Below are positions 3,875 through 31,485 of a stretch of DNA of 46,296 nucleotides, piece by piece. The DNA comes from a virus. The position numbers and the translations under genes were made by a program. Position 1 is the first letter of the stretch. The number at the start of each line of letters is the position of its first letter. The notes beneath the pieces were generated by a model. The model was not told where the DNA came from, did no database searches, and saw nothing but the letters and a program-made list of their open reading frames with translations. The stretch lies in IMG/VR virus record IMGVR_UViG_3300038592_000005, positions 1 to 46,296 of that record; one strand, 5' to 3'.

Positions 3875-4675
3875 ATGCCTCTCGAACTAAGCCGCGGGGG
3901 GCGCCGCTATGGCGCCTTTCGTGATACCCCCGACCACCGCGACTTGGGAATGACCTCTGCGCCGTTGGCGAGAGCCGAGGTACTACCTCCCAGCGTAGAT
4001 CTTGAAAACCTCTGCGGTCCGATCCGCGATCAGGGAGCAGAAGGCTCTTGCACCGCCCATGCCGGCGTCGGAATGCGGGAGTTCCTCTATCGCTACTACG
4101 CTCCATACGAAAAGACTCCCGCTGAATCTCCTATCTTCTCTCCAGCCTTTCTCTATTACCAAGAACGCCTCCTTGACGGCACCCTCGACCAGGGAGATTG
4201 CGGCTCTTATGGCCGCACCTGTTGCCGCGCGCTGAATCAGTTCGGTGTCTGTCTGGAATCGGGGGAGCCCTACGTTCCCGGCCAGTTCAACATCGCTCCC
4301 ACTGCCGAACAGTTGGCTGGGGCACTGCAATTTAAGGCCGGAGCGTACCACCGCATCGCTAACGTGCAGGACATGAAATCGTGCCTCGCGAGCGGCTATG
4401 TTTTCGCCATCGGCTTTACGGTCTTCTGGTCCTTCGAGAACAAAATCGGATGGGACGGTTTGTGGGAGCCCGACGCCTCAAGAGAAGATGTGTTGGGCGG
4501 CCATGAAGTGTTGGTCATCGGCTACGATGACTCAAAGCAGGCATTCAAGGTGCGCAATTCATGGGGTCCGTCTTGGGGCGCCAGCGGCAACTTCTGGTTC
4601 AGGTTTTCAGACGCAGCCGATACTCGGATTTTGATGGATGCGTGGATTCAGCACTTATCAGGACCCTGGAAATGA
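3875..4675 (+). CDS. C1A papain-like cysteine peptidase, 266 aa
   Basis: All four papain-family positions are visible: oxyanion Gln53 and nucleophile Cys59 in IRDQGAEGSCTAHAG, His210 in GGHEVLVIGYDD, and Asn228 in KVRNSWGPSWG. There is no signal peptide and no propeptide of usual length, so this is the mature-type domain. Ribosome site AGGAG lies 6 bases upstream. It sits between a lipoprotein and a SleB-type hydrolase, interrupted by an endonuclease gene, which suggests release from the cell or cleavage of host or virion protein. Papain-like peptidases are known in some phages, but their targets are mostly unknown. Confidence 0.9.
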   Translation: MPLELSRGGRRYGAFRDTPDHRDLGMTSAPLARAEVLPPSVDLENLCGPIRDQGAEGSCTAHAGVGMREFLYRYYAPYEKTPAESPIFSPAFLYYQERLLDGTLDQGDCGSYGRTCCRALNQFGVCLESGEPYVPGQFNIAPTAEQLAGALQFKAGAYHRIANVQDMKSCLASGYVFAIGFTVFWSFENKIGWDGLWEPDASREDVLGGHEVLVIGYDDSKQAFKVRNSWGPSWGASGNFWFRFSDAADTRILMDAWIQHLSGPWK

Positions 4676-5313
4676 CGAAAAAAAGATGTGCGTGTGGTTG
4701 TGGGGAACTACCCGCCATGCAGTTACACAACGGGAAACTGTGGGGATATTGTAAATACGCCAGAGGTCACAAACCAAAAACAACCCCAGCTTCTCTTTTG
4801 GCTTTGAACAGAGGTCGGATTACTTGTTGGTCGAATCCAGAACACCGCGCAAAGATGTCCCGCATATGTTCGGAAACGATGAAGAGAACGAATGCACGCC
4901 GGGCCGCTGGAGAGTTTCCTGAGTGGGATCGCAAGCAGAGCGAGAGGATGAAAATAAGAACATCGCAAATGTGGCGTGATGGCACCATGGCTCGCGCGCA
5001 CCACCAACGATTCGGAATTTTCCGTTCTCGTCTTGAAGTTAGATTTTCATTTCTTCTAGACTTGTTAAAAATTAGATGGAAATACGAACCGAAAACATTC
5101 GATGTAAACTTGGACGGAAAGACCGTAACTTACACGCCAGACTTCCACCTAGTAGACAAAGACCATTGGATTGAAGTAAAAGGATTCTGGAGAGACGAAG
5201 AATCAAAGCGCAAGGTGCAGAATTTCATGGAACAGTATCCCGAATTGAAGTTTTCTGTTGTTCATGGAAATAGGAACGGTCCATTCGATACGATTTTAGG
5301 CCCTGCCTGGTGA
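4672..5313 (+). CDS. putative homing endonuclease: Cys-rich motif, NUMOD3-like helices, PD-(D/E)XK nuclease, 213 aa
   Basis: The ATG overlaps the peptidase stop (ATGA). The N-terminus RCACGCGELP is a Cys knuckle common in phage homing proteins. Residues about 50-115 contain repeats like NPEHRAKMSRICSETMKR and DRKQSERMKIRTSQMW, resembling NUMOD3 DNA-binding motifs. The C-terminal half has TPDF followed by DHWIEVKGFW, the PD-(D/E)XK active-site pattern (D, then E-x-K). The gene is visibly richer in A and T than both flanks, consistent with separate acquisition. It sits neatly between two lysis genes. The last residues (GPAW) faintly resemble the peptidase end (GPWK), possibly a remnant of insertion. 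Nuclease activity is inferred. Confidence 0.75.
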   Translation: MTKKRCACGCGELPAMQLHNGKLWGYCKYARGHKPKTTPASLLALNRGRITCWSNPEHRAKMSRICSETMKRTNARRAAGEFPEWDRKQSERMKIRTSQMWRDGTMARAHHQRFGIFRSRLEVRFSFLLDLLKIRWKYEPKTFDVNLDGKTVTYTPDFHLVDKDHWIEVKGFWRDEESKRKVQNFMEQYPELKFSVVHGNRNGPFDTILGPAW

Positions 5314-5317
5314 ATCC

Positions 5318-5776
5318 GTGGACGCGAAACCTTACGCTGAATTGAGCGATTTGGAACTTCTCGAACTAGCCGCATGGAGAGAAGCCCGCGGGGAATCCTT
5401 CGAAGGCAAGAGAGCGGTCGTCTGGAGTATTCAGAATCGCGTGCATCAGCCGAAGTGGTGGGGCAAAGACTGGCGGGGTGTGATTCTAAAGCCGTGGCAG
5501 TATTCCAGCTTCAACGTCAACGATCCCAATGTTGGGAAATGGCCTGCCGAGGATGATCCCTCTTTCATAGATTGCTGCAAAGCCGCAGAGCCGATCTATT
5601 CAGGACAGGACACGCAAGACCCTACCGATGGCGCTACGCACTACTATGACACCAGCATCAATTTTCCGAAGGCGTGGGGTTCCCAGAGCGGGTGGGTGAA
5701 TACCTTGAACATTGGCCGGCTGAAGTTCTGGAAAGAAGCGCCGCCGGCCATCTTCCTCGACGCGCAGGACAACTAA
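5318..5776 (+). CDS. SleB/CwlJ-type cell wall hydrolase (endolysin candidate), 152 aa
   Basis: LELAAWREARGESFEGKRAV, then VWSIQNRV, and later TDGATHYYD followed by PKAW match the Hydrolase_2 (SleB/CwlJ) fold, in which the glutamate of AREARGE is the catalytic acid of a lytic transglycosylase- or muramidase-like reaction on peptidoglycan. Start is GTG at 5318, 4 bases after the endonuclease stop. The length of about 150 residues is that of a bare catalytic domain with no binding domain or signal peptide, so export would need a holin. The gene converges on the minus-strand gene ending at 5773, with a 4-base tail overlap. Confidence 0.85.
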   Translation: MDAKPYAELSDLELLELAAWREARGESFEGKRAVVWSIQNRVHQPKWWGKDWRGVILKPWQYSSFNVNDPNVGKWPAEDDPSFIDCCKAAEPIYSGQDTQDPTDGATHYYDTSINFPKAWGSQSGWVNTLNIGRLKFWKEAPPAIFLDAQDN

Positions 5777-5991
5777 TCTTTGTTGACGGCTGCAATACTC
5801 CGCGGTTCCATGCCTCGCGGATAAAGAATGTCGTTATTGTTTCCGATGTGCTTGTGGGGAGGAAATTCATCCATCATCCATTCGATTTTGGTGACGAACT
5901 TGACGAGCTTTCCGTAGATGAGCAGCAGGCCAAAAGCGAAAGACATCAGTTTTAGGATGTCTCCGAACGTCACCGTCCAATCGAAGTGCAT
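5773..5991 (-). CDS. single-pass membrane protein, holin/lysis accessory candidate, 72 aa
   Basis: The ATG at 5991 lies 9 bases after AAGGAG, so it is preferred over a GTG at 6009 in the same frame. One hydrophobic segment (ILKLMSFAFGLLLIYGKLVKFV, about residues 12-33) is followed by a charged C-terminal domain with DEFPPHKH. Last gene of the late operon, just after the three-helix protein at 6025. The size and topology fit a holin or antiholin, but such proteins have no diagnostic motif. Confidence 0.6.
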   Translation of the reverse strand: MHFDWTVTFGDILKLMSFAFGLLLIYGKLVKFVTKIEWMMDEFPPHKHIGNNNDILYPRGMEPRSIAAVNKD

Positions 5992-6024
5992 GACTTCACT
6001 CTCCTTCACTAAGGAATGGCTTGC

Positions 6025-6339: not shown

Positions 6340-6349
6340 AGCATCTCCT

Positions 6350-15501: not shown

Positions 15502-15502
15502 G

Positions 15503-15736
15503 TTAATCCTGATCTTTTCCGCGTCCCGACGTGCTTCTTCCTCGGCCTCCGCCACCCCGCATATTCGTCTGCCGGAACTGGCGGACGATGGGTAAGACTT
15601 CCTCGCCTTCGGGGAATTCCTCATTGCCGGACGAGAACGGCGTATACATCTCCGGGTCGGTTTCCGTGTCCATCGTCTCTTTCAGCCGGCGTTCGAAATT
15701 CGATGATGCATCTGTAGGACTGCTATTGTGTCTCAT
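15503..15736 (-). CDS. hypothetical protein, 77 aa
   Basis: ATG at 15736 is 8 bases after TAGGAG. The product is polar and acidic in the middle (SSGNEEFPEGEEVLP) with a Gly/Arg-rich tail (RGGGGRGRSTSGRGKDQD) that looks disordered and nucleic-acid-binding. The stop lies one base before the giant fibre start, so the two are coupled. Function unknown; a chaperone or linker for the fibre is possible. Confidence 0.5.
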   Translation of the reverse strand: MRHNSSPTDASSNFERRLKETMDTETDPEMYTPFSSGNEEFPEGEEVLPIVRQFRQTNMRGGGGRGRSTSGRGKDQD

Positions 15737-15745
15737 TTCGTTCTC

Positions 15746-15790: not shown

Positions 15791-16390
15791 ATGCCCAACA
15801 AGCGTGGATCGTATCAGGTCCAACGTCATGTCGTTTTTCAGCCGCTTGATGATTCTTACCGTCTTATTCCACTTACGCAAGGCCAGAATGCCATTGTTGA
15901 TCCAGATGATTTCGAATTTTTGAACAAGATGAACTGGTGCGCAGTATGGAACGAGAACACGAAAAGTTTTTACGCTGCACGAGGAATTCATGAAGGCAGA
16001 ACAACGCGCACTATCAAAATGCACCGAGTTATTCTCGACTGTAAAGAGGGAGAAGAAGGCGATCACAAAAATCATAACACGCTTGATAATCGCCATCGGA
16101 ATCTTCGAAAGTGCTCTCATGCCATAAACATGAGAAATCAAAAAATCTGTCGGGATAGCAGCAGCGGCCACAAGGGAGCTATCTGGCACAAGAGATTGGA
16201 AAAGTGGCAATCCTCTATCCGATTGAATGGAAAACTCATTCATTTGGGATATTTCCCCTCCAAAGAAGAGGCCGCAAAAGCCTATGATGTGGCAGCCAAG
16301 ATTCACTTTGGAGAATTCGCCCACTTGAATTTCCCTCCTCATGAAAATGAAATTGTCACGTCTGCTGCCGTGCCCGTGGCCAGTGCATAG
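15791..16390 (+). CDS. HNH-AP2 homing endonuclease, 199 aa
   Basis: Residues about 78-115 hold the HNH core (HRVILDCKEGEEGDHKNHNT, then NLRKCSHAINMRNQ). The C-terminal part is an AP2-type DNA-binding domain (SGHKGAIWHKRLEKWQSSIR to KAYDVAAKIHFGEFAHLNFP). Ribosome site GAGGTGG precedes ATG 15791. It lies on the opposite strand to the whole late operon and is richer in A and T than its neighbours. Its final 17 codons run antisense through the 3' end of the 16339..16629 gene, so its last residues are encoded by that gene's complement. Homing activity is inferred from the family. Confidence 0.9.
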   Translation: MPNKRGSYQVQRHVVFQPLDDSYRLIPLTQGQNAIVDPDDFEFLNKMNWCAVWNENTKSFYAARGIHEGRTTRTIKMHRVILDCKEGEEGDHKNHNTLDNRHRNLRKCSHAINMRNQKICRDSSSGHKGAIWHKRLEKWQSSIRLNGKLIHLGYFPSKEEAAKAYDVAAKIHFGEFAHLNFPPHENEIVTSAAVPVASA

Positions 16391-18919: not shown

Positions 18920-20019
18920 TACGGAACCTTGGTTCCCCCGAGATCGGAGAGGCTATTCCCCTCCGCCATCTTTTCGAGGTACTTCTGAATCATCGCTTTT
19001 GTTTTCGGATCGTCAACCATGGCCCCTGTTTGATAGACGGTCTGGTCCCAAGATGCCACCTGCCGCGTCGCCCCTTCGAGCATTTGGTTTCTGACTTCTT
19101 GGCTCAATGCCCCGCCAGTGAGGGCTCCGTTAACCATGGCAATGGCTTTGTCATCCCATCCGCCTTGGTGCAAAAACATTTCTACCATCTTCGGAGAACC
19201 GCGGAGAGCTTTCGGGTCCACGCCGAACATCAACTGCATAAAGCCTTCTGCGATCATCAAATCGCCCGGTCGTGTGCCCTTTCCTCCGGTGAGTTCCGCT
19301 TGGGCCACTTCCTGAGCGACCGTCTTCAGGAAGGAATGCCCGACGATGCCGCGCTTGACGGTTTTGAACACCTCGTCGCGCTGCTTTTGCAGTTCCCGGA
19401 TGTCACTGATTTCCAGTGCGCGGTTGATGGCATCCGCGTTATGTCTTGCCGCGATCGTTTCCTTCTTTTCCTCTCCGAGTTCTTGGGCCTTGCGATAGGA
19501 GGCCAGTTCGTCCTTCAGATTTTTGGGCAGTGTAGGGTCATCCACGCTCCACGTTTTACCCTGTTCGTCGGTGATCTTCCACGGCTCACTCGTTCCCGGT
19601 ACGGGTTTGATGTCGATGGCCTTGGGCGGCTTCCCCGCTGCTTCAAACTTCTGATATTCCTCGGCGGTTCCTTTGGGATGTCCCGCGCGCCACAGTTCCA
19701 GCACGTTATTGATTTTGGGCTGCGTCTCGGCTGGCAGGCCAAGAATGCTTCTGTAATCTTCCGGCTTCAAATCAATTCCTTGGGCCTTGGCCGCATCGCG
19801 CAGGGAAGAGATTTTCTGTTCGAGTGCGGCTTGTTCCGTGTCCGGCGTCAGTTTCAGGCGGCGTAACCGCTCCTGAGCTTCATCGAGCGAGACGGTCTTT
19901 TCCTTCATGTTCAGGGAATCCATCAACTGCTTGAGCTTGGCGGCCTGCGCGTCGAGCTTGCCCTGGGCCACCTGTGACCCAGCTTCGCCAATTCCCTGAA
20001 ATAGACTGGCGAGGTTAAT
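18919..20019 (-). CDS. internal virion / ejection protein candidate, 366 aa, possible ATT start
   Basis: The frame opens with codons for INLASLFQGIGEAGSQVAQG; an ATT at 20019 follows GGAGGTGTCCA and is a candidate rare start. A TTG at 20043 is the first conventional start but has no ribosome site. The protein is helical and charged with few aromatics. The segment AEGFMQLMFGVDPKALRG near 275 is its most hydrophobic patch. It stands between two other candidate ejection proteins. The upstream HNH-like gene (20015) begins with codons for MNLASK, matching this gene's N-terminus, so insertion of that gene probably displaced the original ATG. Exact start unproven. Confidence 0.6.
   Translation of the reverse strand: MNLASLFQGIGEAGSQVAQGKLDAQAAKLKQLMDSLNMKEKTVSLDEAQERLRRLKLTPDTEQAALEQKISSLRDAAKAQGIDLKPEDYRSILGLPAETQPKINNVLELWRAGHPKGTAEEYQKFEAAGKPPKAIDIKPVPGTSEPWKITDEQGKTWSVDDPTLPKNLKDELASYRKAQELGEEKKETIAARHNADAINRALEISDIRELQKQRDEVFKTVKRGIVGHSFLKTVAQEVAQAELTGGKGTRPGDLMIAEGFMQLMFGVDPKALRGSPKMVEMFLHQGGWDDKAIAMVNGALTGGALSQEVRNQMLEGATRQVASWDQTVYQTGAMVDDPKTKAMIQKYLEKMAEGNSLSDLGGTKVP
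20005..20019 (-). repeat. 15-bp direct repeat, downstream copy (13/15 identical)
   Basis: Minus-strand ATTAACCTCGCCAGT. It matches ATGAATCTCGCCAGT at 20351-20365 except for two bases. The pair flanks the Cys-knuckle endonuclease-like gene and encodes [M/I]NLAS both times. Confidence 0.85.
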
Positions 20020-20365
20020 TGGACACCTCCGTATTTTTCCCAAAATGCTCTTGTTGATACAAAAACGACATCCTGTTGTGAAACCACCTATGGTAACTGC
20101 TAGTACAAATCAACAAATTGGCATTTCTGTATCTTACGGCGTTTTTTCTTGCCTGCGAGTCATGTCTGTGAGTAAACCCTGTGTTAAACGGCTTCAAGCA
20201 ATTAGCGCAAATCTTGTCTATTGGCTGAACCAATTTTTTATAGGAATGGACTTTTCCTGTCCACCGATTAGCGCAAAGGCGGCTACAAAAAGTTTGGGTA
20301 GCATGTTTCGTTGTAACCATAAAGTCTTTGCCACATGTAACGCAATTTTTACTGGCGAGATTCAT
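20015..20365 (-). CDS. Cys-knuckle HNH-like putative homing endonuclease, 116 aa
   Basis: Starts MNLASKNCVTCGKDF at 20365, sharing a base with the upstream stop (TAATG). Two Cys pairs are clear: CVTCGKDF...FCSRLCANRW and ICANCLKPF. The C-terminal part THRHDSQ...NANLLICTSS.YHRWFHNRM resembles an HNH core with a Tyr where the second Cys is usual, so it may be degenerate. It lies between two ejection protein genes, is A/T-rich compared with them, and is bordered by the 15-bp repeats. Catalytic competence is doubtful; mobility is inferred from the context. Confidence 0.65.
   Translation of the reverse strand: MNLASKNCVTCGKDFMVTTKHATQTFCSRLCANRWTGKVHSYKKLVQPIDKICANCLKPFNTGFTHRHDSQARKNAVRYRNANLLICTSSYHRWFHNRMSFLYQQEHFGKNTEVSN
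20351..20365 (-). repeat. 15-bp direct repeat, upstream copy
   Basis: Minus-strand ATGAATCTCGCCAGT, the first five codons of the HNH-like gene. It duplicates the start of the 18919 gene (ATTAACCTCGCCAGT at 20005-20019), a footprint of the insertion of this mobile gene. Confidence 0.85.
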
Positions 20366-20985
20366 TAGTCCCATACCCCCGTATCACTGGACGGCGCGTT
20401 TGGTGTCGTCAAACCAGGCGTTCCCGACTGTTGAGCGATGATTTGTTCCAAGATTTTCCCCGTGTCCGAGGGAATCCCGCTCGTGTCGGGAACCTGATTC
20501 GGCGTTTCTCCGCCACCGCCTCCCTGCAGGAGTTTCAAGATCGGAGTCACGTCCGTGTTTCCACCCATGGCCTGCAGGAGCGCCTGCGCGTATTCGATGG
20601 GCAGTCCCATTTGCTTCATGATCAACTGGAGAGCCATCTGCTGCTGCTGCAATTTGTAGGGCGCGAGCGCCTGCGTTTCGGTGGCTGCGAAGATGCCTGG
20701 CGCCTGCGCTAGTCCGCGCGTGGCCATATCCGCCTGCACGAGATTCCCGACGTTCTGTAGTAAATCTTGGCCAAGAGGCTGTTGCGCGCGGCTGACCAGT
20801 CCCGCCAGTTGTTCAGGAGTCAGGTCGGCGTACTTCTGTTCCGCGGACTTCAACTGGTCCGTCACCTTGCCGCGCTGAATCATGTTCATGAGGTTGCCGA
20901 AGAGTCCCGCACCAGCCGTGACGCCTTCGATGGCCGGCGCGGCACTCTTGAAAAATCCTCCGACTTTACCGAGTATGTCACCCAT
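20365..20985 (-). CDS. internal virion protein candidate, 206 aa
   Basis: N-terminus MGDILGKVGGFFKSAAPAIE contains a Gly/Ala hydrophobic region (about 8-37), followed by a helical Gln-rich middle (APYKLQQQQMALQLIMKQMG) and a Gly/Pro/Ser-rich C-terminal tail. This matches the small, membrane-active member of podovirus ejection protein sets (T7 gp14-like position). It follows the 136-aa gene ending at 20995 and precedes the mobile gene at 20015. No sequence motif confirms the assignment. Confidence 0.55.
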   Translation of the reverse strand: MGDILGKVGGFFKSAAPAIEGVTAGAGLFGNLMNMIQRGKVTDQLKSAEQKYADLTPEQLAGLVSRAQQPLGQDLLQNVGNLVQADMATRGLAQAPGIFAATETQALAPYKLQQQQMALQLIMKQMGLPIEYAQALLQAMGGNTDVTPILKLLQGGGGGETPNQVPDTSGIPSDTGKILEQIIAQQSGTPGLTTPNAPSSDTGVWD

Positions 20986-20994
20986 AAATTTCTC

Positions 20995-21779: not shown

Positions 21780-24598
21780 GAAACCACCAGACTTGCTCCA
21801 ATTTCCTTACTGGTGATATGCGCCGTAAAGCGGTTGAGTGTCAACTGCCCGCTCCCGCTGATTATGGCACTGAAGCGCAGCCCGTCGAGCATGAAGGAAG
21901 CGAAGACCTCGAAGTCTCCCGCCAGCGGTATTTTGTAAGCCTGCGACGGCTGATTCGAACCGTTCACCACGGGCGTAACCGTCAAAGTCCCGAGAGAAGC
22001 CGTGGCGATGACGCGGATCGCCACTCTCCGGCAATTGAGTTTCTGGTCCGGAGCCTGCGAAAAGAATTCCGGCAACTTCACGCTGAAAGATACTTGCGAA
22101 GGGCTGCGCGCGCCTGTTGCTCCCACATCCCACAATTGATCCCCCGCCTGCCAGCGGGAAAGACATCCGTCGGAGAAGCCTCCCAGAATCGTGACCGGAT
22201 TGGCGCTGACTGTCTTGAATTGCGCGCCCGTTGAAATCGGGAAGGGCAGGTCAATCGGCGCCGTCCAGGCTTTCAGTACAAGGTCGTAGCACAAAATTCT
22301 GGTGAGTTGGCCGTTGCTTGCGCCGATGGGGATAGCCGCGCAGTACATTGGAGGATTGGCGGTTTGAAAGCCCCAGATCACGCCCTGCCAGTTGGAATCC
22401 AGCGTCGTGATGTCACTTTCAAGAAAATCTTGCGTGGGAAACAGGTAAGTGCGGATGTCCTCGCTGGCCACGCGGTCTTCCACGCCGTCGAATACCGCGA
22501 ATCCCAAATGGCTGAAGCGCATGATGCCGAAGCCCGGCACGAACTGAATGCTTCTCGGCGCGATGCACCCCATATCGCTCTTGATGCGTTGAATCGTGAG
22601 GGTCGGCGAGCCGAAAATTCCGACAATCTGATATGCGGCATAATTCTTGAAGACGATGAGCGAGCCTTCCGGCGGAATGCCCTGCGCGGTGATGGTAAAC
22701 GAAGCGAGTCCCATGCCTTCCGTGCCGTCATCTTTGTCGAGGAACGCCATATTGATGGGATTCCAGGAAAACGGGTTGTTCACGTCGCTCATGCGCAGCG
22801 CGCACGGCCCGTCAATGCCCGAAGCAGTATTGCTCGTCGCGGTATTCAGCATGCACAGAGAACCCGCATAGACGGCCACATGCCCGCAGCCGGGAGGAGC
22901 GGGTGCGGCCGTGTTCACGAGCCCAGCTTCGCGCCAGAGAATCGAGCCGTCACCCACTTGCGCTCCCGTACCAGTTGGAAACGCTGGCTGCGCGGCAGCG
23001 GATACTCCGCCCTGCACAGCGATGTAGTAGTGGCCGTTGGATACCGTGGGAACACTCACGGAATTGGCCGAATAGGCTGTGGACGCCGACCAAGCAGGAA
23101 ACGCCGGGGTAAAAGAATTGGTGATGGGCTGGGCCGTGGTGGTCGAAGTGCCGCCCGAGGACGCTCCTTGCCCGATGGCTGCAAGATTTCGCACTTTGTA
23201 CTGCGTAGGCGAAACAATCTGAATCGTGGGTCCGACGTAGTTATAGGAAGAGTTCCCCACTCCGGCGATAAGCGCATTTCCGCCTACAACCAGACCATGC
23301 GCCGTTCCCGTCGTTACGGTAACCACGCCGAAGGCATCCACGGTAATCGCCGTGATGGCGGCAATCGTCGCGGGATTCGTCGGCGTCGTGGGATCGGAGA
23401 AAATCTGCGGCGCGAAGCCGTTGCCTAGCGCCATGACCACCCGGTTTGTAAACTCCACCATCTGTGGGATGAAAGTTACGTTGTTGGGAAGTCCGCCAGA
23501 AGGCGTCGGTGAAGTGCCTGCCCCGCCGCCTCCTATCGCACCTCCTCCTCCTGTGCCTCCGCCGCCGCCGGAGCCGCCGCCGCCACCACCGTCCAACGCC
23601 CGGGGATCAGCGGGAAACAGAGCCGCGATGTTGGAATTGTCGTAAGAGACCGGAAGTGTCGCAACCGCTCCGAAGATGGCCGGCATTTTGTAGAGCGCGG
23701 TCTGTTGCGTGTTGTCCGCTACCGGAGGAGCATTCCCCGTAGTCACCGTTCCACTTCCGCTTGCTTTGCCTCCCGGAAAGCCATTGGGATTGTTGGTCGT
23801 GAAGTGCGTACTGTCTATGATGGATCCTACGGTGTAGGTGCCATTGAACGTCGCATCGTGGACTCCTGCGGCCGTCACAATCTGGCCAGCCGCGATCGTA
23901 TTGGGAGATGTCGTCGTCCACAGGAGATAACTTCCGAAGATGCACTTCACGCCCATTGCGGGATAGGCGAGGATGCTGAATGTCGCTCCGGCTAGAGTCG
24001 TGCTGCCGTCATCCACGAAACTGACCGTGAGCGCCCCAGGAAGCACTTGCACAACGGGCAATACGGCAGTGGGGCTTCCCGTCAGCAGGGTTTCCGCCCC
24101 TGAAGAAGTGGAGCGGTAGACGTTGTACTGCGAAGCGTTGGGAACGATATTCCACGTCAGCGTGTTTTTCCCGTTCGCTCCGGTGGCGATGCTGGCTTCA
24201 TTCGAAGCTGTCGTTTCTCCGCTTGCGCCGTCAATTGCCGTCACCTTATAGAAATACGTCGCTGCGCCAAGACTTCCGCCCGCCGCCGTGGCCAAAATCA
24301 AATTCTGCGGAGCGCCGAGCGGCACATCCAGAGCCTTCAGCAGCGCGAGGTAGTAGCGCGAAACGCCCGTGGGGGAAAACAGGAAATCGCACATGACTTT
24401 GCCGCGGCCCGTAGCCACCGTTCCCTGATAGGCATGGACGAGTTGCGAGCCGTCACACACGTCCAGAGCCCCGCGCGAGTTCAGGATAAGATTCGAGCCG
24501 CGCGGGAAAGTGCCCTTCGGCTGGGTATACGGGTCCGTCGAGGCATTCATCCCTTTGATGAACGGCGCCGTCGGCACGGGTTTGTAAGAAGGGCTCAT
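21776..24598 (-). CDS. tail nozzle protein (P22 gp10-like beta-propeller), 940 aa
   Basis: The C-terminal half contains the characteristic string NNPFSWNPINMAFLDKDDGT, then GSLIVFKNYAAYQIVG, IQRIKSDMGCIAPRSI and MRFSHLGFAVFDG. These recur in phage tail-hub or nozzle proteins that form a hexameric propeller at the tail tip. Inserted modules include a fibronectin-like domain (about 100-205), a HGL..G-type beta module, and a flexible linker of about 35 mostly Gly residues (near 345-380). The linker is encoded by a C-rich stretch at 23521-23600. The start (ATG 24598) overlaps the phosphatase stop (24595). Nozzle is secure; linker role unknown. Confidence 0.8.
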   Translation of the reverse strand: MSPSYKPVPTAPFIKGMNASTDPYTQPKGTFPRGSNLILNSRGALDVCDGSQLVHAYQGTVATGRGKVMCDFLFSPTGVSRYYLALLKALDVPLGAPQNLILATAAGGSLGAATYFYKVTAIDGASGETTASNEASIATGANGKNTLTWNIVPNASQYNVYRSTSSGAETLLTGSPTAVLPVVQVLPGALTVSFVDDGSTTLAGATFSILAYPAMGVKCIFGSYLLWTTTSPNTIAAGQIVTAAGVHDATFNGTYTVGSIIDSTHFTTNNPNGFPGGKASGSGTVTTGNAPPVADNTQQTALYKMPAIFGAVATLPVSYDNSNIAALFPADPRALDGGGGGGSGGGGGTGGGGAIGGGGAGTSPTPSGGLPNNVTFIPQMVEFTNRVVMALGNGFAPQIFSDPTTPTNPATIAAITAITVDAFGVVTVTTGTAHGLVVGGNALIAGVGNSSYNYVGPTIQIVSPTQYKVRNLAAIGQGASSGGTSTTTAQPITNSFTPAFPAWSASTAYSANSVSVPTVSNGHYYIAVQGGVSAAAQPAFPTGTGAQVGDGSILWREAGLVNTAAPAPPGCGHVAVYAGSLCMLNTATSNTASGIDGPCALRMSDVNNPFSWNPINMAFLDKDDGTEGMGLASFTITAQGIPPEGSLIVFKNYAAYQIVGIFGSPTLTIQRIKSDMGCIAPRSIQFVPGFGIMRFSHLGFAVFDGVEDRVASEDIRTYLFPTQDFLESDITTLDSNWQGVIWGFQTANPPMYCAAIPIGASNGQLTRILCYDLVLKAWTAPIDLPFPISTGAQFKTVSANPVTILGGFSDGCLSRWQAGDQLWDVGATGARSPSQVSFSVKLPEFFSQAPDQKLNCRRVAIRVIATASLGTLTVTPVVNGSNQPSQAYKIPLAGDFEVFASFMLDGLRFSAIISGSGQLTLNRFTAHITSKEIGASLVVS

Positions 24599-25041
24599 GG
24601 AATCAAAAGTTGGTGCTCCACAGAATCAAGATAGGTCTGAATTTGAAAAAACGTGACTTCGGGACGCGCAGTCCTGATTCTGCCGATTGCCTCATCCTTG
24701 GAAATTCCCAGAGCGCGCAGAAGCGCGTAGCACATCGTAGGACCGCGGTCATGTCCCGCCGCACAATGCGGAAATACCTTTGTCCCTGCGCGAGTCAGGG
24801 CTTCAAAGGCGAATCGGATGCCGGTTCTGTACTGACCTGATGGCCGTGGTGAGCCGTCGTCGAGTTGCGGAAGCCAGAGCACGGTCACTCGTGAATCGGC
24901 AAGCACGTTGTCGTCGTATTCTGCTCGCATGTCAATGATGTGAGTGACCCCATTGGCGACCAGTTGAGAAATATCGTCCACAGAGGAAATACCCCCGCCT
25001 ACGGCAATTCGTTCCGTCACCCAGTTGTAAGACACGCTCAT
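24595..25041 (-). CDS. dual-specificity-type protein phosphatase, 148 aa
   Basis: The P-loop signature HCAAGHDRG (residues 92-100) gives nucleophile Cys93 and phosphate-binding Arg99, and the adjacent LPQLDDGSP (57-65) supplies the general-acid Asp loop. The N-terminus ITERIAVGGG-like segment (VTERIAVGGGISSVDD) and the middle HIIDMRAEYDD fit the DSP/KAP fold. It follows the endonuclease VII-like gene and overlaps the nozzle gene. A phosphatase within a tail module is unusual; it may be a virion enzyme, a host-takeover factor or an accessory. Substrate unknown. Confidence 0.85.
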   Translation of the reverse strand: MSVSYNWVTERIAVGGGISSVDDISQLVANGVTHIIDMRAEYDDNVLADSRVTVLWLPQLDDGSPRPSGQYRTGIRFAFEALTRAGTKVFPHCAAGHDRGPTMCYALLRALGISKDEAIGRIRTARPEVTFFQIQTYLDSVEHQLLIP

Positions 25042-25641
25042 TTATTTCCCTTCTAACTGCTTTGCTCTGCCGATTTTTCCGTAGTGCTTGCTTCTCTCAA
25101 GCAACTCTGGATTTTTCCACGCCTCGATATTTGATCTTCGGCACTTTTCTTTCCATTCAGGACTGCCGCGTTTCGTCTTCTCGTGTGGCACAAATCTTCT
25201 GGGAGCCGACAAGTATTCTTTAGCCTTTGTATTCCAATCGGCATCCATCTCCACAAGACTGATTGCGATGTTGCAAATACAACAAAGCAATCCTCGAACT
25301 TCTTCTGTCTCGTGGTCGTGGTCAATACAGAGCCTTCTTCCGGAAGGATCTGGTCGTTTGCAGATGGCGCACACATTGTTCTGGTCTTGGAGCATTTTCT
25401 TGTAATCGTCCACTGAAATACCGTATCTGGCAATGTTATTTCTCAGACTTCTTTCTCTTGATAGTTTGCGGGTATGCTCCGCTGACTGAGGGGAACGATA
25501 GGCCGACTTTGTACAGTCTCCGTTTCTACATTGACGGCATGTGTGGCGTCTTCCGGCACCCATTTCTTGTGCGTGGAAAAATGGAAAGTCTTCAAGTGGT
25601 TTAGGAATTTTACATCGTTTACACAATCTAAATGCAGTCAT
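25042..25641 (-). CDS. endonuclease VII-family HNH nuclease, 199 aa, probable homing gene
   Basis: N-terminal CKRCKIPKPLEDFPFF and CRQCRNGDC are zinc knuckles. The core YGISVDDYKKMLQDQNNVCA, CKRPDP, IDHDHETEEVRGLLC and CICN matches the Endonuclease VII family (T4 gp49). The C-terminus adds SPEWKEKCRRSNIEAWKNPE, a NUMOD3-like motif. The ATG at 25641 follows GGAGGTTTTG and shares a base with the adaptor stop; an upstream in-frame start at 25710 is rejected. The stop is adjacent to the phosphatase start. It could be a true resolvase, but the location in a structural operon and the NUMOD3 tail favour a homing gene. Confidence 0.85.
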   Translation of the reverse strand: MTAFRLCKRCKIPKPLEDFPFFHAQEMGAGRRHTCRQCRNGDCTKSAYRSPQSAEHTRKLSRERSLRNNIARYGISVDDYKKMLQDQNNVCAICKRPDPSGRRLCIDHDHETEEVRGLLCCICNIAISLVEMDADWNTKAKEYLSAPRRFVPHEKTKRGSPEWKEKCRRSNIEAWKNPELLERSKHYGKIGRAKQLEGK

Positions 25642-26930
25642 CAAAACCTCCAAATAGATTGTAGAAGCGAGCCAACTGAGAGTCCAATGAATAAGGCCGG
25701 AACGATCCAACCACCCCCGAATGATGGAAGTGTCTCAAGGGAACTGCTTTGCTCTCCTATTTGACGAGGACCGACGGTCACTTTGTTGCTTCTCATCCAG
25801 TCGCTCATCTGCTTGATGAAGCCCTCTTCGAGCTTCGAGTAGTCGCCCAAATTCTGTTCCGCGAGCTTCATTCTTCCCAGCGCGTACTTGAACAAGAGCG
25901 CATTCCAGCCCAGCGGCACGGGCAACACGCTCAAGGAATTCCCTGGCTGAAACGTCGGTGCGTACTGCTTCCAGCCCTGAAAGAACAGGTTCATTTCGGC
26001 GACCGTAGCTCCCGCCGCAATGCTGGCCTGCGTGGTGCCAGAAAGGCCCGCGATGACATTCTGGAGCACGTTGCCTACAATCCCCGAATAACTGACGACG
26101 ACAGTACCGATTTGCGCAAAACCATTCGTCAAGAGAAATCCCGCTGCGGAAGTGAGAGTTGCGGTTGTATCCCCGAGATTGAATGGCGCAGCGAGCGTCG
26201 TTTTTGCCGCCGTGCGCGAAGGCTGCGGCCAAACCTCCAGCATCATGCGGTCCGTAAAAAGAGATGTGGCCACCGAAGCGAGAATTGATGCCGTGATGGC
26301 GTTGCGGCGGAAGTAGTTTCCCGCGTCGTCCATGGCCAGCGGATAGCCGTCGTACCACACTGTAGAAATTCTCTTCCACTGGCCCATGATGATGTACTGC
26401 GGAACCTTGGAAGTCGTGCCGATGCCTCCGTAATCGAGCAGCCCGCCACAGACTTGGGAAGCGAGCTCCAAGCCGCGATTGATCCAGCGGTAGATCGAAG
26501 AAGCGTTTACGGAACTGCCGTCCGTATCGGGAAGATAGGCGCTATTGCGGAGCGGCGGCACCGCCGTAAGCCCAGGAGCGGAAATCGTGAACGGCAATAC
26601 GCTCGATTCGGAGAACTGCTGTTCGCTTCCTGCGGCGCCCCCGGGCTGCGTCAAATAGACGCGGATGACCGAAGCACTTGGGGGAATGGACGGCCCGGTA
26701 ATTTGGATTCCCTGCCCCGCGCCAACTACCAAGGCACCAGACTCCGCTCCCTGCATGGTTTCACCCCACGGAGTCCGAAACGTGTAATTCGCGTAGTAGG
26801 TTCCCGCAGGAAGCGTGGAACTTCCGGGAGTGACGACGGACGCGGCAATCTGCGCCGTCGGCGTGGGCAGCACTTGCGGCTGGTCCGTTATCGCTTCGCG
26901 GACATCCTGGATGAGATCGCCGATGATCAA
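25641..26930 (-). CDS. head-tail adaptor / tail accessory protein, 429 aa
   Basis: Begins MIIGDLIQDVREAITDQPQV, a pattern of head-tail adaptor proteins (P22 gp4-like / T7 gp11-like). A fibronectin-like module (about 35-125: YANYTFRTPWGE, SVIRVYLTQPGG) is inserted after it. The middle helical region (SSIYRWINRGLELASQVCGG) and a second beta insert (about 235-305) follow, then VPLGWNALLFKYALGRMKL, a conserved adaptor helix. C-terminus is hydrophobic (WIVPALFIGLSVGSLLQSI). Position after the capsid block and before the nozzle fits. Exact family unverified. Confidence 0.65.
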   Translation of the reverse strand: MIIGDLIQDVREAITDQPQVLPTPTAQIAASVVTPGSSTLPAGTYYANYTFRTPWGETMQGAESGALVVGAGQGIQITGPSIPPSASVIRVYLTQPGGAAGSEQQFSESSVLPFTISAPGLTAVPPLRNSAYLPDTDGSSVNASSIYRWINRGLELASQVCGGLLDYGGIGTTSKVPQYIIMGQWKRISTVWYDGYPLAMDDAGNYFRRNAITASILASVATSLFTDRMMLEVWPQPSRTAAKTTLAAPFNLGDTTATLTSAAGFLLTNGFAQIGTVVVSYSGIVGNVLQNVIAGLSGTTQASIAAGATVAEMNLFFQGWKQYAPTFQPGNSLSVLPVPLGWNALLFKYALGRMKLAEQNLGDYSKLEEGFIKQMSDWMRSNKVTVGPRQIGEQSSSLETLPSFGGGWIVPALFIGLSVGSLLQSIWRF

Positions 26931-27018
26931 AATCTTTCTCCCTGAAAAGCAACGGGCCGAAAGCCGGTTTCAGCCGACTTCCGGCCCGAAGGAGGAGTCA
27001 CTGCCCGATGAAAACTCT

Positions 27019-27468: not shown

Positions 27469-27480
27469 GTTCGCTCTCCC

Positions 27481-27954
27481 TTACTGCACAAGTTCTGTCG
27501 TGATGCCCTTCCAATTGACGAGCACCAAATCTTTCCGTAGTTTTTCTCTCTTTTCCAGATTCTTTGCCAAAACTTTTTGGCCCGTCTTGCCGATTAGTTG
27601 CCGGAAGGCAAGCGCAACGTGCGCATGTTTTTGTTTGATTATGAAGTACGGGAAGCATCCAAGCAGAATGGCTTCCGCTTCTTTCCCGCCTACATACCAA
27701 ACCAATTCTTTCTTCCACGTGGGCTTCGGATTGGCTTTGCGGACTGGTTTTACATTGCCGCCGCCAAATGTTTGCTTGCACCAGACAATCAGCCGCGGGT
27801 CGCAATTATAGACTCGTACTTCAAGTAAATGCCTTGAATAGCCGCCATTCCCAGGCGAAGCCTTTTGCACGTCGATTCGAATCGTGCCTTCACCGTCAAT
27901 GTAGGCTGCGAGTCGCGCCCAGTCGATTTCCGAGATTTTGTTCAACTCTTTCAT
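27481..27954 (-). CDS. LAGLIDADG homing endonuclease, 157 aa
   Basis: WARLAAYIDGEGTIRID (residues 12-28) is a single LAGLIDADG motif with the acidic catalytic residue in DGEG. Single-motif members of about 150-170 residues work as homodimers. The rest (VRVYNCDPRLIVWCKQTFGG, KKELVWYVGGKEAEAIL, HAHVALAFRQLI) matches the alpha-beta-beta-alpha repeat. The gene sits between the major capsid and a small head protein. Ribosome site GGAGG is inside the stem of a hairpin at 27963-27987. Activity and target are inferred; its recognition site would lie at the capsid gene end. Confidence 0.9.
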   Translation of the reverse strand: MKELNKISEIDWARLAAYIDGEGTIRIDVQKASPGNGGYSRHLLEVRVYNCDPRLIVWCKQTFGGGNVKPVRKANPKPTWKKELVWYVGGKEAEAILLGCFPYFIIKQKHAHVALAFRQLIGKTGQKVLAKNLEKREKLRKDLVLVNWKGITTELVQ

Positions 27955-27962
27955 TTGCTCCT

Positions 27963-28012
27963 CCGTGCCTATTTTATCACGGCACGGTGTCCAGAACCCC
28001 CGCTAGTTCTGG
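27963..28012 (-). promoter_or_regulatory. tandem hairpins around the capsid stop codon and endonuclease ribosome site
   Basis: CCAGAAC (27991-27997) pairs with GTTCTGG (28006-28012) around an 8-base loop and includes the capsid stop region. CCGTGCC (27963-27969) pairs with GGCACGG (27981-27987) around an 11-base loop. In the minus transcript the second stem runs into GGAGG, the ribosome site of the LAGLIDADG gene. There is no U-tract, so these are more likely processing, attenuation or translation-control structures than terminators. Confidence 0.45.
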
Positions 28013-28986
28013 TTTGTTATTTTGCAATGCATACGGGGCGAAAGGTTGGCAAGCTGCCATGTTAAATACATATTGCTTACTAAGACACGTTGATTACTTG
28101 GTTTTACCCATGGGTCAATCACGAAGTAGTCCGCCTCGTGGAACACGGGGAAGAGGTACTTCGAATTCAGGATGTAGCTGACGTTCGCCGGACAGTTGCG
28201 GTCGGCCAGAACGACCGCATTGTTGAACAGGAAGTGGTAACGGAATCCGGCCTGCAGGGCTTCCTTGTCCTGAATGTTCGATTCGTAGCGGACGTTGCCC
28301 ATGAACACGCCCTTGAATCCCGCGTAGCGCGTGTTGTCCATGACCATCAGGTCCGGCTCGTCGTAGCCGAACACCGTGGACCAGTAGGCCGCATCGGCAT
28401 TGGCCGCCGTCAGTACGGCGTTGCCTGCGGAGACGTTGGCCTGCGGCCGCCAGAAGGCATTGGCGGCCTGCGAGCGGTCGATGCCCGCGATGTTGTTGGT
28501 CGTCAGGCCAACCCAGGAATCCACGTCGTCGATGTCGATGGAAGAGTTTTGCGGCGCGGTATGCCACAGGGAGCGCGCGAGCTTCTGCATGAAGGAACCG
28601 CTGGCCGTCTGGAACTTCTGGCGCACGATGTCCACGCCCGCGTAGCCGCCGCGCCCAAGGATGATGTCGGTATACGGCAGCACGACGGCTTCATAGTAGA
28701 AGCGCCATTGCTGCTCGGCGGGCTGCACGACATCCTGCAGCGCAGTGTTCAAAAGCTGGGCGCCGTAGTAGGCCCCTCCGGTCGTCTCTTCGGAGAAGAA
28801 CTCCGGGTAAACCAGAGCGCCGCCGGCCATCTTCTTGCCCCGGCGCACGAGCGCCCACATCGTCGGGCAAGGCAGAAGCACCTGGTCGCCAACGACAGGC
28901 GTGACGTACTTCTGCACGATCGCCTGGATGGTGTTGACTAACTGCGCTGGAGGTGTCGAAATCCCAGTTCCGATTACGCTAGCCAC
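28003..28986 (-). CDS. major capsid protein, 327 aa
   Basis: MASVIGTGISTPPAQLVNTI... then EQQWRFYYEAVVLPYTDIIL, GGYAGVDIVRQKFQTAS, GFRYHFLFNNAVVLADR and YILNSKYLFPVFHEADYF. This pattern is that of phage major capsid proteins of the P22-like / HK97-fold type without cleavage. The GTG at 28986 is preceded by AAGGAG. The gene follows the scaffold candidate at 29015 and precedes head and adaptor genes, as expected. No protease gene was seen, consistent with a scaffold-only assembly route. Fold is inferred from pattern memory. Confidence 0.8.
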   Translation of the reverse strand: MASVIGTGISTPPAQLVNTIQAIVQKYVTPVVGDQVLLPCPTMWALVRRGKKMAGGALVYPEFFSEETTGGAYYGAQLLNTALQDVVQPAEQQWRFYYEAVVLPYTDIILGRGGYAGVDIVRQKFQTASGSFMQKLARSLWHTAPQNSSIDIDDVDSWVGLTTNNIAGIDRSQAANAFWRPQANVSAGNAVLTAANADAAYWSTVFGYDEPDLMVMDNTRYAGFKGVFMGNVRYESNIQDKEALQAGFRYHFLFNNAVVLADRNCPANVSYILNSKYLFPVFHEADYFVIDPWVKPSNQRVLVSNMYLTWQLANLSPRMHCKITNQN

Positions 28987-29014
28987 GGTGGTTCTCCTTG
29001 AAAGTCAGATCGCT

Positions 29015-29779
29015 CTACTGCACTGGCCCGTCCAATGACGGAATGTCCGGGTCATTGGCGACCATTTCCGAAGTCAACTCACTCAAATTCTTGATGGGCG
29101 CTTCCTTCGCGCCCTTCTGCGAAGCGAAGCGGCCAGCAGGCTTGGGGATCGAGTCCATCTTCTTCTGCTTGTCCCAGTCCACGCGCGCGGCAGCCACGGC
29201 CTTTTCCTCAGCGGCCTTGATGCGGTCCGCTTCCGTCGCTCGGTACAGGTATTTTTCGACCGTCGGCAAACCCATGTTGTCGAGTTCATGCGCGGCCAGA
29301 ACTTCCTGCACGACTTCCTCGAATTTCTTGTCCTTGGGCTTGATGGGAGCCTCGGCCCACTGGCGGCGCATGCGTTCCAGAGCATAGATGGCCTGGGAAG
29401 TGTCGAGGGATTTCTTCATCTCTTCGGAGCGGGCGAGAGCGTCCTTCGCGTTCTTGGCCAGTTCGTCGAAGACCGGAACGATGTCCTCGTAGAGAGGATT
29501 CTTGCGCCAGTCGGCGGCGTTGCCGGGTTCATCCGGTTTCTTCGTGTTGGCGGCCATTTCCTTCTGGGCTTGCTGGAGAGCCGTGAGAATCTGCGCGGCC
29601 TCTCCGGCCACGCGCTCGGCCTCTTTCCTCTGGGCGGCGGCGGCTTTCGTTTCCGTGTCCACGCTCGACCGGAAGCCTCGGATGTCGGACAACTTGAACG
29701 TCACCCCATCGGGGCCAGTGAATGCCAGGTCATCGGCGGCTGCGGCGTCTGCGATAAGCTCTGCGAGTGTCTTGGCCAT
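29015..29779 (-). CDS. scaffolding protein candidate, 254 aa
   Basis: The ATG at 29779 (MAKTLAELIADAAAADD) is preceded by GAGGAGAGTACCG; a frame extension to 29899 is rejected. The protein is Ala/Glu/Lys-rich and helical, with long charged stretches and no Cys, and ends in an acidic tail (VANDPDIPSLDGPVQ). It lies just upstream of the capsid gene, the usual position of scaffolds. Scaffold is an inference from position and composition. Confidence 0.6.
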   Translation of the reverse strand: MAKTLAELIADAAAADDLAFTGPDGVTFKLSDIRGFRSSVDTETKAAAAQRKEAERVAGEAAQILTALQQAQKEMAANTKKPDEPGNAADWRKNPLYEDIVPVFDELAKNAKDALARSEEMKKSLDTSQAIYALERMRRQWAEAPIKPKDKKFEEVVQEVLAAHELDNMGLPTVEKYLYRATEADRIKAAEEKAVAAARVDWDKQKKMDSIPKPAGRFASQKGAKEAPIKNLSELTSEMVANDPDIPSLDGPVQ

Positions 29780-29792
29780 CGGTACTCTCCTC

Positions 29793-30212
29793 TTACATTC
29801 CAATTCCAGCGGGTTTCGGCAACTGCGGAGCCCCGCTTGCTCCTCCTGGGGGTTGCGGTTGCGGAATGGCCGACATATTGATTGGCCCTCCGACCGCATT
29901 CAGTGTGGCTTGCGCCTGCTGCAATTCCTTGATGGCGGCGTCCAAGCCCTTGAAAGTGGAAACCAGAGCGCGGGATGCGGCTGGAGCCCGGAAGGCCAAC
30001 GTGGGAATCATGTCCGCTATCTGCTTCTTCAGTTGATTCACGAGTTTTAGCGCGTAATCGGGATCCGCTCCCTGCAATTCTCTGGTCGCGGGCCCCATAG
30101 ACTCTTCGCCACCCGCTCCGGGAGCCCCACCGGGGCCTCCGGGTCCGCCTGCTCCGCCCAGTTTGGACTTGAGCATTTGGAGGATGAGCTGCGGATTGGC
30201 TGCGCCGCCCAT
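29793..30212 (-). CDS. Gly-rich helical protein, 139 aa (head assembly region)
   Basis: MGGAANPQLILQMLKSKL, a Gly/Pro-rich linker (GGPGGPGGAPGAGG), a helical core (LKLVNQLKKQIADM; GLDAAIKELQQAQATL) and a Pro-rich tail. Its stop lies 13 bases before the scaffold candidate gene. Likely a head morphogenesis protein or co-scaffold; not recognised. Confidence 0.5.
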   Translation of the reverse strand: MGGAANPQLILQMLKSKLGGAGGPGGPGGAPGAGGEESMGPATRELQGADPDYALKLVNQLKKQIADMIPTLAFRAPAASRALVSTFKGLDAAIKELQQAQATLNAVGGPINMSAIPQPQPPGGASGAPQLPKPAGIGM

Positions 30213-30404
30213 TTATCCCTTCGGGGGAGCTCCGCCCTTGCGCGCGCCACCCTTGAAGTTTCCGTGAGTCAGCCCCATGGGGTCGGGAGGATCGAATGCG
30301 GAAGGCACATTGGCCGTTTCCGGGTCGTTGCCTGTCCGGTTGCCCTCTTCGTTGATGGGGGTAATCAGTTCGTCGTACCCGCCCTTTTTCAATTTGTCCG
30401 GCAT
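30213..30404 (-). CDS. hypothetical protein, 63 aa
   Basis: AGAAGGAGAACAGC precedes the ATG at 30404. Polar, Pro/Asn/Gly-rich and likely flexible (MPDKLKKGGYDELITPINEE), with a basic end (GARKGGAPPKG). The stop abuts the ATG at 30212, so it is cotranscribed with the head genes. Function unknown. Confidence 0.5.
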   Translation of the reverse strand: MPDKLKKGGYDELITPINEEGNRTGNDPETANVPSAFDPPDPMGLTHGNFKGGARKGGAPPKG

Positions 30405-30467
30405 GCTGTTCTCCTTCTGGAAGAGGGGGGAGGAAACCCTCCCCCAGCCTTCCCCAAAACTTCCTGC

Positions 30468-30515
30468 TTACTTGCGCTTCCCGCCGCGGCGGTGCTTCCG
30501 GCCTCTGCGTGCCAT
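30468..30515 (-). CDS. very short basic peptide, 15 aa
   Basis: MARRGRKHRRGGKRK is read from ATG 30515, 5 bases after AAGGAG, to TAA at 30468. Eleven of 15 residues are Arg, Lys or His. It falls below normal gene-caller limits, but the good ribosome site, the position in a packed operon, and the similarity of its RGGKRK ending to the 50-aa protein at 16830 and the peptide at 30575 support translation. Confidence 0.4.
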   Translation of the reverse strand: MARRGRKHRRGGKRK

Positions 30516-30574
30516 GTGCGCTCCTTTCTCCGCTACGCCCCTTGCGGGACAGATCGCAACTAGCGGTTACAAAC

Positions 30575-30640
30575 TCAGTACCGGCCGCCCTTGCGCTTGC
30601 CGCGTCCGGTGGAAGTCCGGCGAATCTTTCTCGATCGCAT
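30575..30640 (-). CDS. very short basic peptide, 21 aa
   Basis: The ATG at 30640 shares a base with the upstream stop (TGATG) and lies 8 bases after AAGGAG. The product is almost only Arg, Lys, Gly and Ser and ends GRGKRKGGRY. It forms a pair with the 15-residue peptide at 30468. A DNA- or RNA-binding role in the head is an inference. Confidence 0.4.
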   Translation of the reverse strand: MRSRKIRRTSTGRGKRKGGRY

Positions 30641-30879
30641 CAGTGGGCTCCTTCGACAATTTCCGTCTGCAGCGGATTGCGCGCGTCGCCGCATTTCCGA
30701 ATGGTTGCTGCGCCCATGCGGAACAGGTACGCCATAAAATCCTCTTCCTTCGGATAACGCTCGCGGATGGATTTGTGCGCGAAAAACGGGACGGAGGGAA
30801 CTTCATTCACGGCAACTTGCGCTAAATAGTATTCGCCGTGATTGATGGAATCCAGTTCGATGAGGCTTGCTCGGTCCAC
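30640..30879 (-). CDS. hypothetical protein, 79 aa from GTG; 5' end possibly altered
   Basis: The conventional start is GTG 30879 (MDRASLIELDSINHGEYYLA), without a ribosome site. The frame stays open upstream to a TGA at 30922-30924 and encodes a natural-looking extension ending KIVLRSKLPAV, but holds no ATG, GTG or TTG there. The HNH gene ends exactly at that point, so its insertion may have removed the original start. A 40-codon frame from ATG 30925 overlaps it in another phase. Predicted mixed alpha/beta; family unknown. Confidence 0.45.
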   Translation of the reverse strand: MDRASLIELDSINHGEYYLAQVAVNEVPSVPFFAHKSIRERYPKEEDFMAYLFRMGAATIRKCGDARNPLQTEIVEGAH

Positions 30880-30921
30880 GGCTGGGAGTTTGGAGCGTAA
30901 AACTATCTTCTGGCAATAGGG

Positions 30922-31485
30922 TCATTTCCCTCTTACAAATGGGATGTGCTTCCAAAGACGGCCACTCGCCACTCTTCGGGCCGTTGATGTTTTGATATTT
31001 AGGGAACGGACCAGAAATCTCCATTCTTTAATTCGCTCGATGTATTGTTTTTTTGCGGTTCTAACTTGTTTGTCTGCTGCCCGTAGTTGCATTACTTTTT
31101 TTTCATTGAGGACCGCACGGCCATTTCTTTCGCCCCACGTATGCCGCATTTTACTAGCTGAATCAAGCATATTGTCTCTATGAGTCCCCGAGAACAAGTG
31201 GGTGTTTCTTACGCAGGATCGATTATCACAATGATGAAGAACGTGAATTCTTGCTCTCCCATTTTTCTTTCTTTTTGGCAAAGGTCTTCCGTAAATTTCC
31301 CATGCTAGGCGATGGGCAGTTTCCACTTTGTCTCCTGTCCAAAACACCCCATATCCGGCTCCATTGATTGCCGCTGTCCAAATCCAGCATTGGCCTAATT
31401 CAGGAAGGTGTGGAGGGATGGGACCGTCTTTGTTTACATGTCCCCAGAAGCGTTCCAGCCAATCCTTGTCAAGAAAGATTCTCAT
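30922..31485 (-). CDS. HNH homing endonuclease, 187 aa
   Basis: CWIWTAAINGAGYGVFW, then AHRLAWEIYG and HVLHHCDNRSCVRNTHLF, DNMLDSASKMR: the HNH_3 core with paired His and CxxC-like Cys. The C-terminal half is a basic helical DNA-binding part (KKQYIERIKEWRFLVRSLN). Start is ATG 31485 (a TTG at 31491 is two codons upstream). A/T-rich leader and codons set it apart from neighbours. It lies between the HTH gene and the 79-aa gene whose start looks disturbed. Nuclease activity inferred. Confidence 0.88.
   Translation of the reverse strand: MRIFLDKDWLERFWGHVNKDGPIPPHLPELGQCWIWTAAINGAGYGVFWTGDKVETAHRLAWEIYGRPLPKRKKNGRARIHVLHHCDNRSCVRNTHLFSGTHRDNMLDSASKMRHTWGERNGRAVLNEKKVMQLRAADKQVRTAKKQYIERIKEWRFLVRSLNIKTSTARRVASGRLWKHIPFVRGK

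Follow-up and report, generated by a model that had tools for sequence, protein, structure and literature searches.

What are several endonuclease genes of unrelated families doing among the lysis and virion genes of a small phage? The question is raised by IMG/VR virus record IMGVR_UViG_3300038592_000005, of which we analyzed positions 1 to 46,296 (46,296 bases, here called the window). Six genes in it, designated EN1 to EN6, are very probably free-standing homing endonuclease genes (HEGs), i.e., selfish elements that arrived independently at the boundaries of essential virion or lysis genes. They represent at least four unrelated kinds. At the spots they occupy, relatives have different genes of this sort, introns, or no insert, which marks the region as a landing zone that mobile endonucleases have long used. 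The virus record is classed as linear, and the window is probably a fragment of a phage genome, since several relatives are 54 to 56 kb long. Twelve relatives (G001 to G012) were found by a scan with the major capsid protein (MCP), which is 80 to 86% identical in them, and there are several distant ones besides. Gene order is common to the window and the 12 relatives; insert content differs.

Identity and composition of the six genes

Gene identities were assigned by hidden Markov model (HMM) searches against Pfam and PHROGs and, for EN5, also by predicted fold. A first-pass annotation of the window had proposed six homing-type endonuclease genes of several families; all six open reading frames (ORFs) proved intact and correctly placed, and the searches assigned them to nuclease families, firmly for five (by Pfam, PHROGs, or fold) and weakly for EN3. 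The particular family names held for the same five genes, including LAGLIDADG for EN5 on the basis of its predicted fold, but the NUMOD3 tail attributed to EN4 was not detected by Pfam.

EN1 (4672-5313, plus strand) is of the PD-(D/E)XK type and lies between a peptidase gene (3875-4675), whose stop codon is overlapped by its ATG (AATGA), and an endolysin gene (5318-5776). It matches Pfam Phage_endo_I (4e-9), phrog_945 endonuclease (1e-13), and phrog_29037 and carries a PDF...EVK motif; no close relatives of it were found in viral contigs. The late operon had been suggested as the landing zone, but EN1 belongs to a plus-strand lysis cassette near 4 to 6 kb rather than to the minus-strand late operon. 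EN2 (15791-16390) is an HNH-AP2 gene (AP2, 1e-6; HNH_3, 4e-5; phrog_99, 6e-38) between the fibre-side genes and gene x16339; it had been read as lying on the opposite strand, and it is indeed on the plus strand, antisense to the late operon. EN3 (20015-20374, minus strand) is a short HNH-like ORF with a Cys knuckle; it interrupts gene x18919 just past the first codons. Its only match is a weak one to phrog_1271 (HNH; 2.5e-6), with no Pfam family above cut-off; its single-sequence AlphaFold model was uninformative (pLDDT 41), and viral contigs yielded one match, weak and partial.

EN4 (25042-25644, minus strand) is of the endonuclease VII type (DHHRN), with a match to Endonuclease_7 (3e-17), a DHDH...R...N pattern recognized by eye, and three partial matches in viral contigs. 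Its start overlaps the stop (ATGA) of the adaptor-like gene (25641-26930), and on its other side lies a dual-specificity-phosphatase-like gene (24595-25041, minus strand; DSPc, 2e-7). That gene, which adjoins the endonuclease VII gene amid virion genes, has an HCAAGHDRG motif and gave no tblastn match in the 12 relatives. EN5 (27481-27954, minus strand), a free-standing single-motif LAGLIDADG gene, lies between the MCP gene (28003-28986, minus strand; phrog_9953) and x27019. EN6 (30922-31485, minus strand; HNH_3, 2e-8) lies between a small helix-turn-helix-like gene and x30640, near the portal gene (31747-33453).

The G+C fraction of EN1 to EN6 is 0.40 to 0.49 (0.46 for EN1), compared with 0.577 ± 0.026 for 22 core genes, and among core stretches of matched length, no more than 0.06% reach such an A/T content. 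Four of the genes had been described as A/T-richer than their flanks; against core genes, this is true of all six. In the suggested check of codon use, synonymous codon use proved unusual in only two or three of the six.

Filled, empty, and exchanged sites in relatives

Comparison of gene order with relatives, which the first-pass annotation had named as a check, revealed syntenic empty sites for five of the six genes, EN1 being the exception; EN2 to EN6 thus show the presence/absence at a fixed site that is expected of homing genes. The place of EN2 is empty in G004 and is occupied in G009 by a 45% homologue, which is likewise antisense. At the EN3 junction, x20365 and x18919 overlap by 4 nt (-4 nt) in G010, G011, and G012, versus a distance of 321 nt in the window. 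The adaptor gene and x21776 are separated by 0 to 17 nt in G001, G006, and G009, versus 1042 nt in the window, where EN4 and the phosphatase gene intervene; the EN4 slot is empty in G006, G009, G010, and G011 and holds a GIY-YIG gene in G012. Between MCP and x27019, eight genomes that lack EN5 have a gap of no more than 31 nt, whereas the gap measures 495 to 578 nt in the five that have it (the window and relatives G002, G004, G009, and G010). Finally, the interval between the portal gene and x30640 measures 270 to 290 nt in G003 and G007 and 832 to 1361 nt in the window, G001, G011, and G012, where it holds HNH_3 genes: a same-slot homologue of EN6 in G011, which is 50% identical and has an in-frame stop (nonsense codon) near its start, and antisense HNH_3 genes at a neighbouring slot in G001 and G012. 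As to EN1, the peptidase beside it recurs in one relative only, G001, where an HNH-AP2 gene fills the slot and a different endolysin-like gene comes next. Unrelated families therefore occupy the same slot in different phages (endonuclease VII versus GIY-YIG; PD-(D/E)XK versus HNH-AP2), and with the empty sites this bears out the earlier suggestion of a landing zone.

Further elements were found in the relatives by reading ORFs in gaps and by HMM searches. Between x35942 and TerL there is a NUMOD4-HNH gene in G003 and there are phrog_2340 endonuclease genes in G010 and G011; LAGLIDADG genes lie between x33737 and portal in G008 and between x27019 and adaptor in G006; and a further EN5-type gene, the second in G010, occupies the interval from x30213 to x29793. 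The scaffold-MCP interval holds antisense HNH/endonuclease VII-like genes in G001, G005, G009, and G012, recognized by homology and, for the G009 copy, by an HMM match. The terminase large subunit, TerL, of G008 carries an in-frame intein with a LAGLIDADG domain (L038, 6539-7615; Intein_splicing, 1.6e-9; LAGLIDADG_3, 7e-5).

EN3 also bears marks of its insertion. Its edges (left, TAATGAATCTCGCCAGT; right, CAATTAACCTCGCCAGT) form a 16-base imperfect direct repeat, of which the upstream copy (AATGAATCTCGCCAGT; 20351-20366, minus strand) holds the original-type start of x18919, and the downstream copy (AATTAACCTCGCCAGT; 20005-20020, minus strand) has ATT in place of ATG. This repeat is the best ungapped match between the two edges, and about 0.7% of shuffles reach it. 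A search for direct repeats at all six insert edges was convincing for EN3 only, marginal for EN6 (2%, with six tests), and negative for the others. Homologues of x18919 in relatives start at (A/G)TGAAC, a sequence that overlaps the stop codon of the gene upstream. The start of x18919 has thus apparently been captured by EN3, and the copy left to x18919 itself opens either at the ATT, which follows a GGAGG, or at a TTG farther upstream.

Identifiable nuclease genes of foreign composition, sites filled in some phages and empty in others, slots where an unrelated family has taken over, and a decayed relative together make a pattern that fits free-standing homing endonucleases in turnover; from it we infer cleavage of DNA, the location of the targets, expression, and homing itself. 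When a relative without the element co-infects, each enzyme would break both strands of a conserved gene next to the vacant site in that relative's DNA, and repair from the resident copy would transfer the endonuclease gene together with some flanking DNA. Expression probably rides on translation of the operon, through the ATGA overlaps of EN1 and EN4 and the captured start of EN3. Over time, the genes would decay, be lost, or give way to another family in the same slot.

Several observations weigh against homing as the general explanation. None of the 12 relatives has both flanks of EN1 with nothing between them, and the nuclease call for EN3 is weak. Comparison of the window with each relative shows saturation at fourfold-degenerate sites in every gene, MCP among them, which leaves no recent co-conversion tract visible. 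In addition, the endonuclease VII and Phage_endo_I families include resolvases that serve the phage, and in some phages essential HNH genes stand next to the terminase gene. EN4 and EN1, which match these two classic resolvase families in Pfam, and the packaging-proximal HNH genes might accordingly be domesticated, resolving branched DNA or assisting terminase, with a location that reflects function and not homing. We consider this improbable: each gene is missing from most relatives that share the module, at two slots unrelated nuclease families replace each other, and all six genes are compositionally foreign.

EN5, the capsid gene, and group I-like introns

EN5 has no Pfam match and was recognized through phrog_5046 (1e-14) and its fold. 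An AlphaFold model based on six homologues (pLDDT 81) resembled I-CvuI, I-CreI, and I-MsoI in a Foldseek search (E of about 5e-9; TM 0.70 to 0.76), and the catalytic aspartate (D20) of its LAAYIDGEG motif is invariant in the six homologues. EN5 thus combines the acidic catalytic residue with the predicted alpha-beta-beta-alpha-beta-beta-alpha fold of LAGLIDADG enzymes, and a protein of its length with one motif could act as a homodimer that cuts a pseudopalindrome. PHROGs labels phrog_5046 "HNH endonuclease," which looks wrong given the predicted I-CreI-like fold. Because of this label and the lack of a Pfam match, the EN5 class may be undercounted in phages.

A scan with the EN5 alignment recovered 29 viral loci, 13 of which directly adjoin an MCP gene of the phrog_9953 type. 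When the four query genomes and three duplicates are left out, an EN5-type gene stands directly beside MCP in 9 of 22 loci of other phages, far from the roughly 3% expected by chance (an estimate from two of about 70 boundaries; the loci are not fully independent). The remaining loci with an identified neighbour mostly adjoin portal or scaffold genes, and three (L088, L090, and L091) adjoin a DNA polymerase gene. The side of MCP on which the EN5-type gene lies, upstream or downstream, differs among phages, and the identity of EN5 does not track that of MCP (48% for EN5 and 53% for MCP in L068; 38% and 84% in G002). Vertical inheritance of EN5 beside MCP was considered and rejected, position labels requiring 11 changes, close to the 13.5 of shuffled labels, though on a poorly resolved tree. 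In G009 (L040, 32193-33043), the x27019 homologue is tandemly duplicated beside the EN5-type gene.

The MCP genes of G009, G010, and G012 are interrupted by ORF-less inserts of 197 to 235 nt (L040, which is G009, 15524-15720 on the minus strand; and, in the other two, L043, 9254-9479, and L047, 7039-7273) at one of two sites, between the second and third bases of codon 20 or of codon 31. In all three cases, MCP is full length again once the insert is taken out. U is the last base of the 5' exon and G that of the insert; P3, P7, P8, and P9 follow the canonical group I order, and P3, P8, and P9 show compensatory changes, as expected of a group I structure. Rfam, whose library includes a group I intron family, gave no match to these three inserts. 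As for the window, an Rfam search found no introns in it, its MCP has no such insert, and a model built from the three MCP introns matched convincingly only those three, the fourth match standing at an E value of 0.17.

In G009 and G010, an intron and an EN5 homologue occur together beside MCP, a pairing absent from the window. EN5-type enzymes might therefore cut intronless MCP genes close to where the introns insert, so that intron and endonuclease gene spread jointly, a refinement of homing for EN5 that would follow a described mechanism, collaborative homing (PMC10448857, PMC2988022). We regard this refinement as doubtful: G012 has the intron without EN5, the window, G002, and G004 have EN5 without the intron, and the introns lack an Rfam match. 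The antisense HNH gene between scaffold and MCP would be an equally good partner, being present with the intron in G009 and G012 and without it in G001 and G005. The broader proposal, that EN5 represents a free-standing, I-CreI-like LAGLIDADG family specialized on phrog_9953 capsid modules, time and again reinserting by MCP and mobilizing ORF-less group I introns, is possible and is put forward only tentatively.

Conservation of MCP far above that of its neighbours (80 to 86% identity even where TerL is 56 to 62% identical) could in principle mean that gene conversion linked to homing spread MCP from one phage clade to another. This is very unlikely, in that fourfold-degenerate sites of MCP differ by 43 to 68%, about as saturated as in other genes, and purifying selection therefore explains the identity of the protein. 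Recent exchange of MCP between clades by homing was rejected on account of these saturated silent sites, leaving room for ancient exchange at most.

Genomic context and comparison with known systems

The region of mainly minus-strand genes extends from 6.3 to 37 kb. Besides the genes mentioned above, it holds genes for terminase (34184-35941) and a scaffold-like protein (29015-29779), further virion-region genes, and a fibre-like gene of 2519 amino acids. Two small conserved genes, both on the minus strand, flank inserts: one (15563-15736) lies on the fibre side of EN2, has a counterpart in most relatives, and shows 66% identity by tblastn to the G012 homologue, and the other (31520-31750), between portal and EN6, was found by tblastn in all 12 relatives. 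Elsewhere in the window, positions 37808-41809 encode a glycosyltransferase/heptosyltransferase/methyltransferase fusion (678 amino acids) followed by a C-methyltransferase (476 amino acids), possibly for modification of host-surface or virion glycans. A C-5 cytosine methylase-like gene (42808-43473) is apparently short (221 amino acids versus 324 positions in the Pfam model), and a phage gene at 881-1636 has a PAPS reductase domain. A megablast search with 24 kb of the window against annotated phages gave no match at the DNA level, and a search for the host with MCP in GTDB genome contigs gave no relative.

The general phenomenon is already known, from HEG islands, T4 seg/mob genes, and Xanthomonas phages. 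In the HEG islands of ICP1-like and other phages, essential modules, capsid and terminase among them, are bracketed by several HEGs that differ in class, and the class at a given position varies between relatives, including replacement of HNH-3 by PD-(D/E)XK (PMC10448857). The window and its relatives share with these islands interchangeable classes that bracket an essential module, and the co-occurrence of introns with free-standing genes. They differ from the islands in that the cargo of the latter can be >90% identical at the DNA level between otherwise unlike phages, whereas silent sites are saturated here, and in that T5orf172 and IPA-HNH dominate there, whereas LAGLIDADG, HNH-AP2, HNH_3, endonuclease VII, and PD-(D/E)XK types are found here (PMC10448857).

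The Xanthomonas phages Xp10, OP1, and Xop411 are similar in having 44-kb genomes with six to eight free-standing endonuclease genes, variable in position and in some cases decayed (PMC2248197, here and below for the part of that paper drawn on). Every one of these genes is a member of the HNH superfamily (of HNN-AP2 or HNH type), with no LAGLIDADG, PD-(D/E)XK, or endonuclease VII types reported in that part, and Xop411 has eight such genes, all HNH type, in 44.5 kb (PMC2248197). CB7 has 23 in 142.8 kb (PMC7344957). Six homing-type genes in 46 kb are therefore no record in number; what is unusual, in line with the first-pass view, is the variety of the catalytic folds.

Like T4 seg/mob genes, the genes of the window are intergenic and free-standing, and T4 ones often overlap the upstream stop (UAAUGA for mobE), as EN1 and EN4 do (PMC2988022). 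The T4 enzymes cut neighbouring genes of relatives, which leads to marker exclusion (PMC2988022); they comprise GIY-YIG and HNH types only, and many have proven activity, whereas those of the window are predicted enzymes. Mycobacteriophage LittleE likewise has a capsid gene with a probable group I intron and an I-CreI-related nuclease, but there the nuclease is inside the intron and antisense, whereas the nuclease gene studied here stands apart from MCP, whose introns in relatives are ORF-less (PMC3706429). F-CphI of cyanophage S-PM2 resembles EN4 as a free-standing homing enzyme with an endonuclease VII-type (DHHRN) motif, the EN4 pattern having been recognized by eye; it differs in that its target is an intron site in psbA, whereas EN4 sits between virion genes (PMC6083498).

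Two features are new: the range of catalytic types that a single small lineage of phages contains, and a family of free-standing LAGLIDADG genes associated with the capsid and lying next to MCP introns; no description of such variety in one small genome, or of a capsid-linked LAGLIDADG family by MCP introns, was found in the literature searched. If the specialization proposed for the EN5 family is correct, an endonuclease-intron partnership shapes capsid genes of uncultured phages. In this small lineage, mobile nucleases of different classes, introns, or an intein have struck almost all boundaries of the capsid module, so these phages form a natural panel of filled and empty alleles. With such a panel, it can be asked whether the elements compete for or share virion-gene targets, how they leave essential operons translatable, and whether the mobility of ORF-less introns is coupled to that of free-standing LAGLIDADG enzymes.

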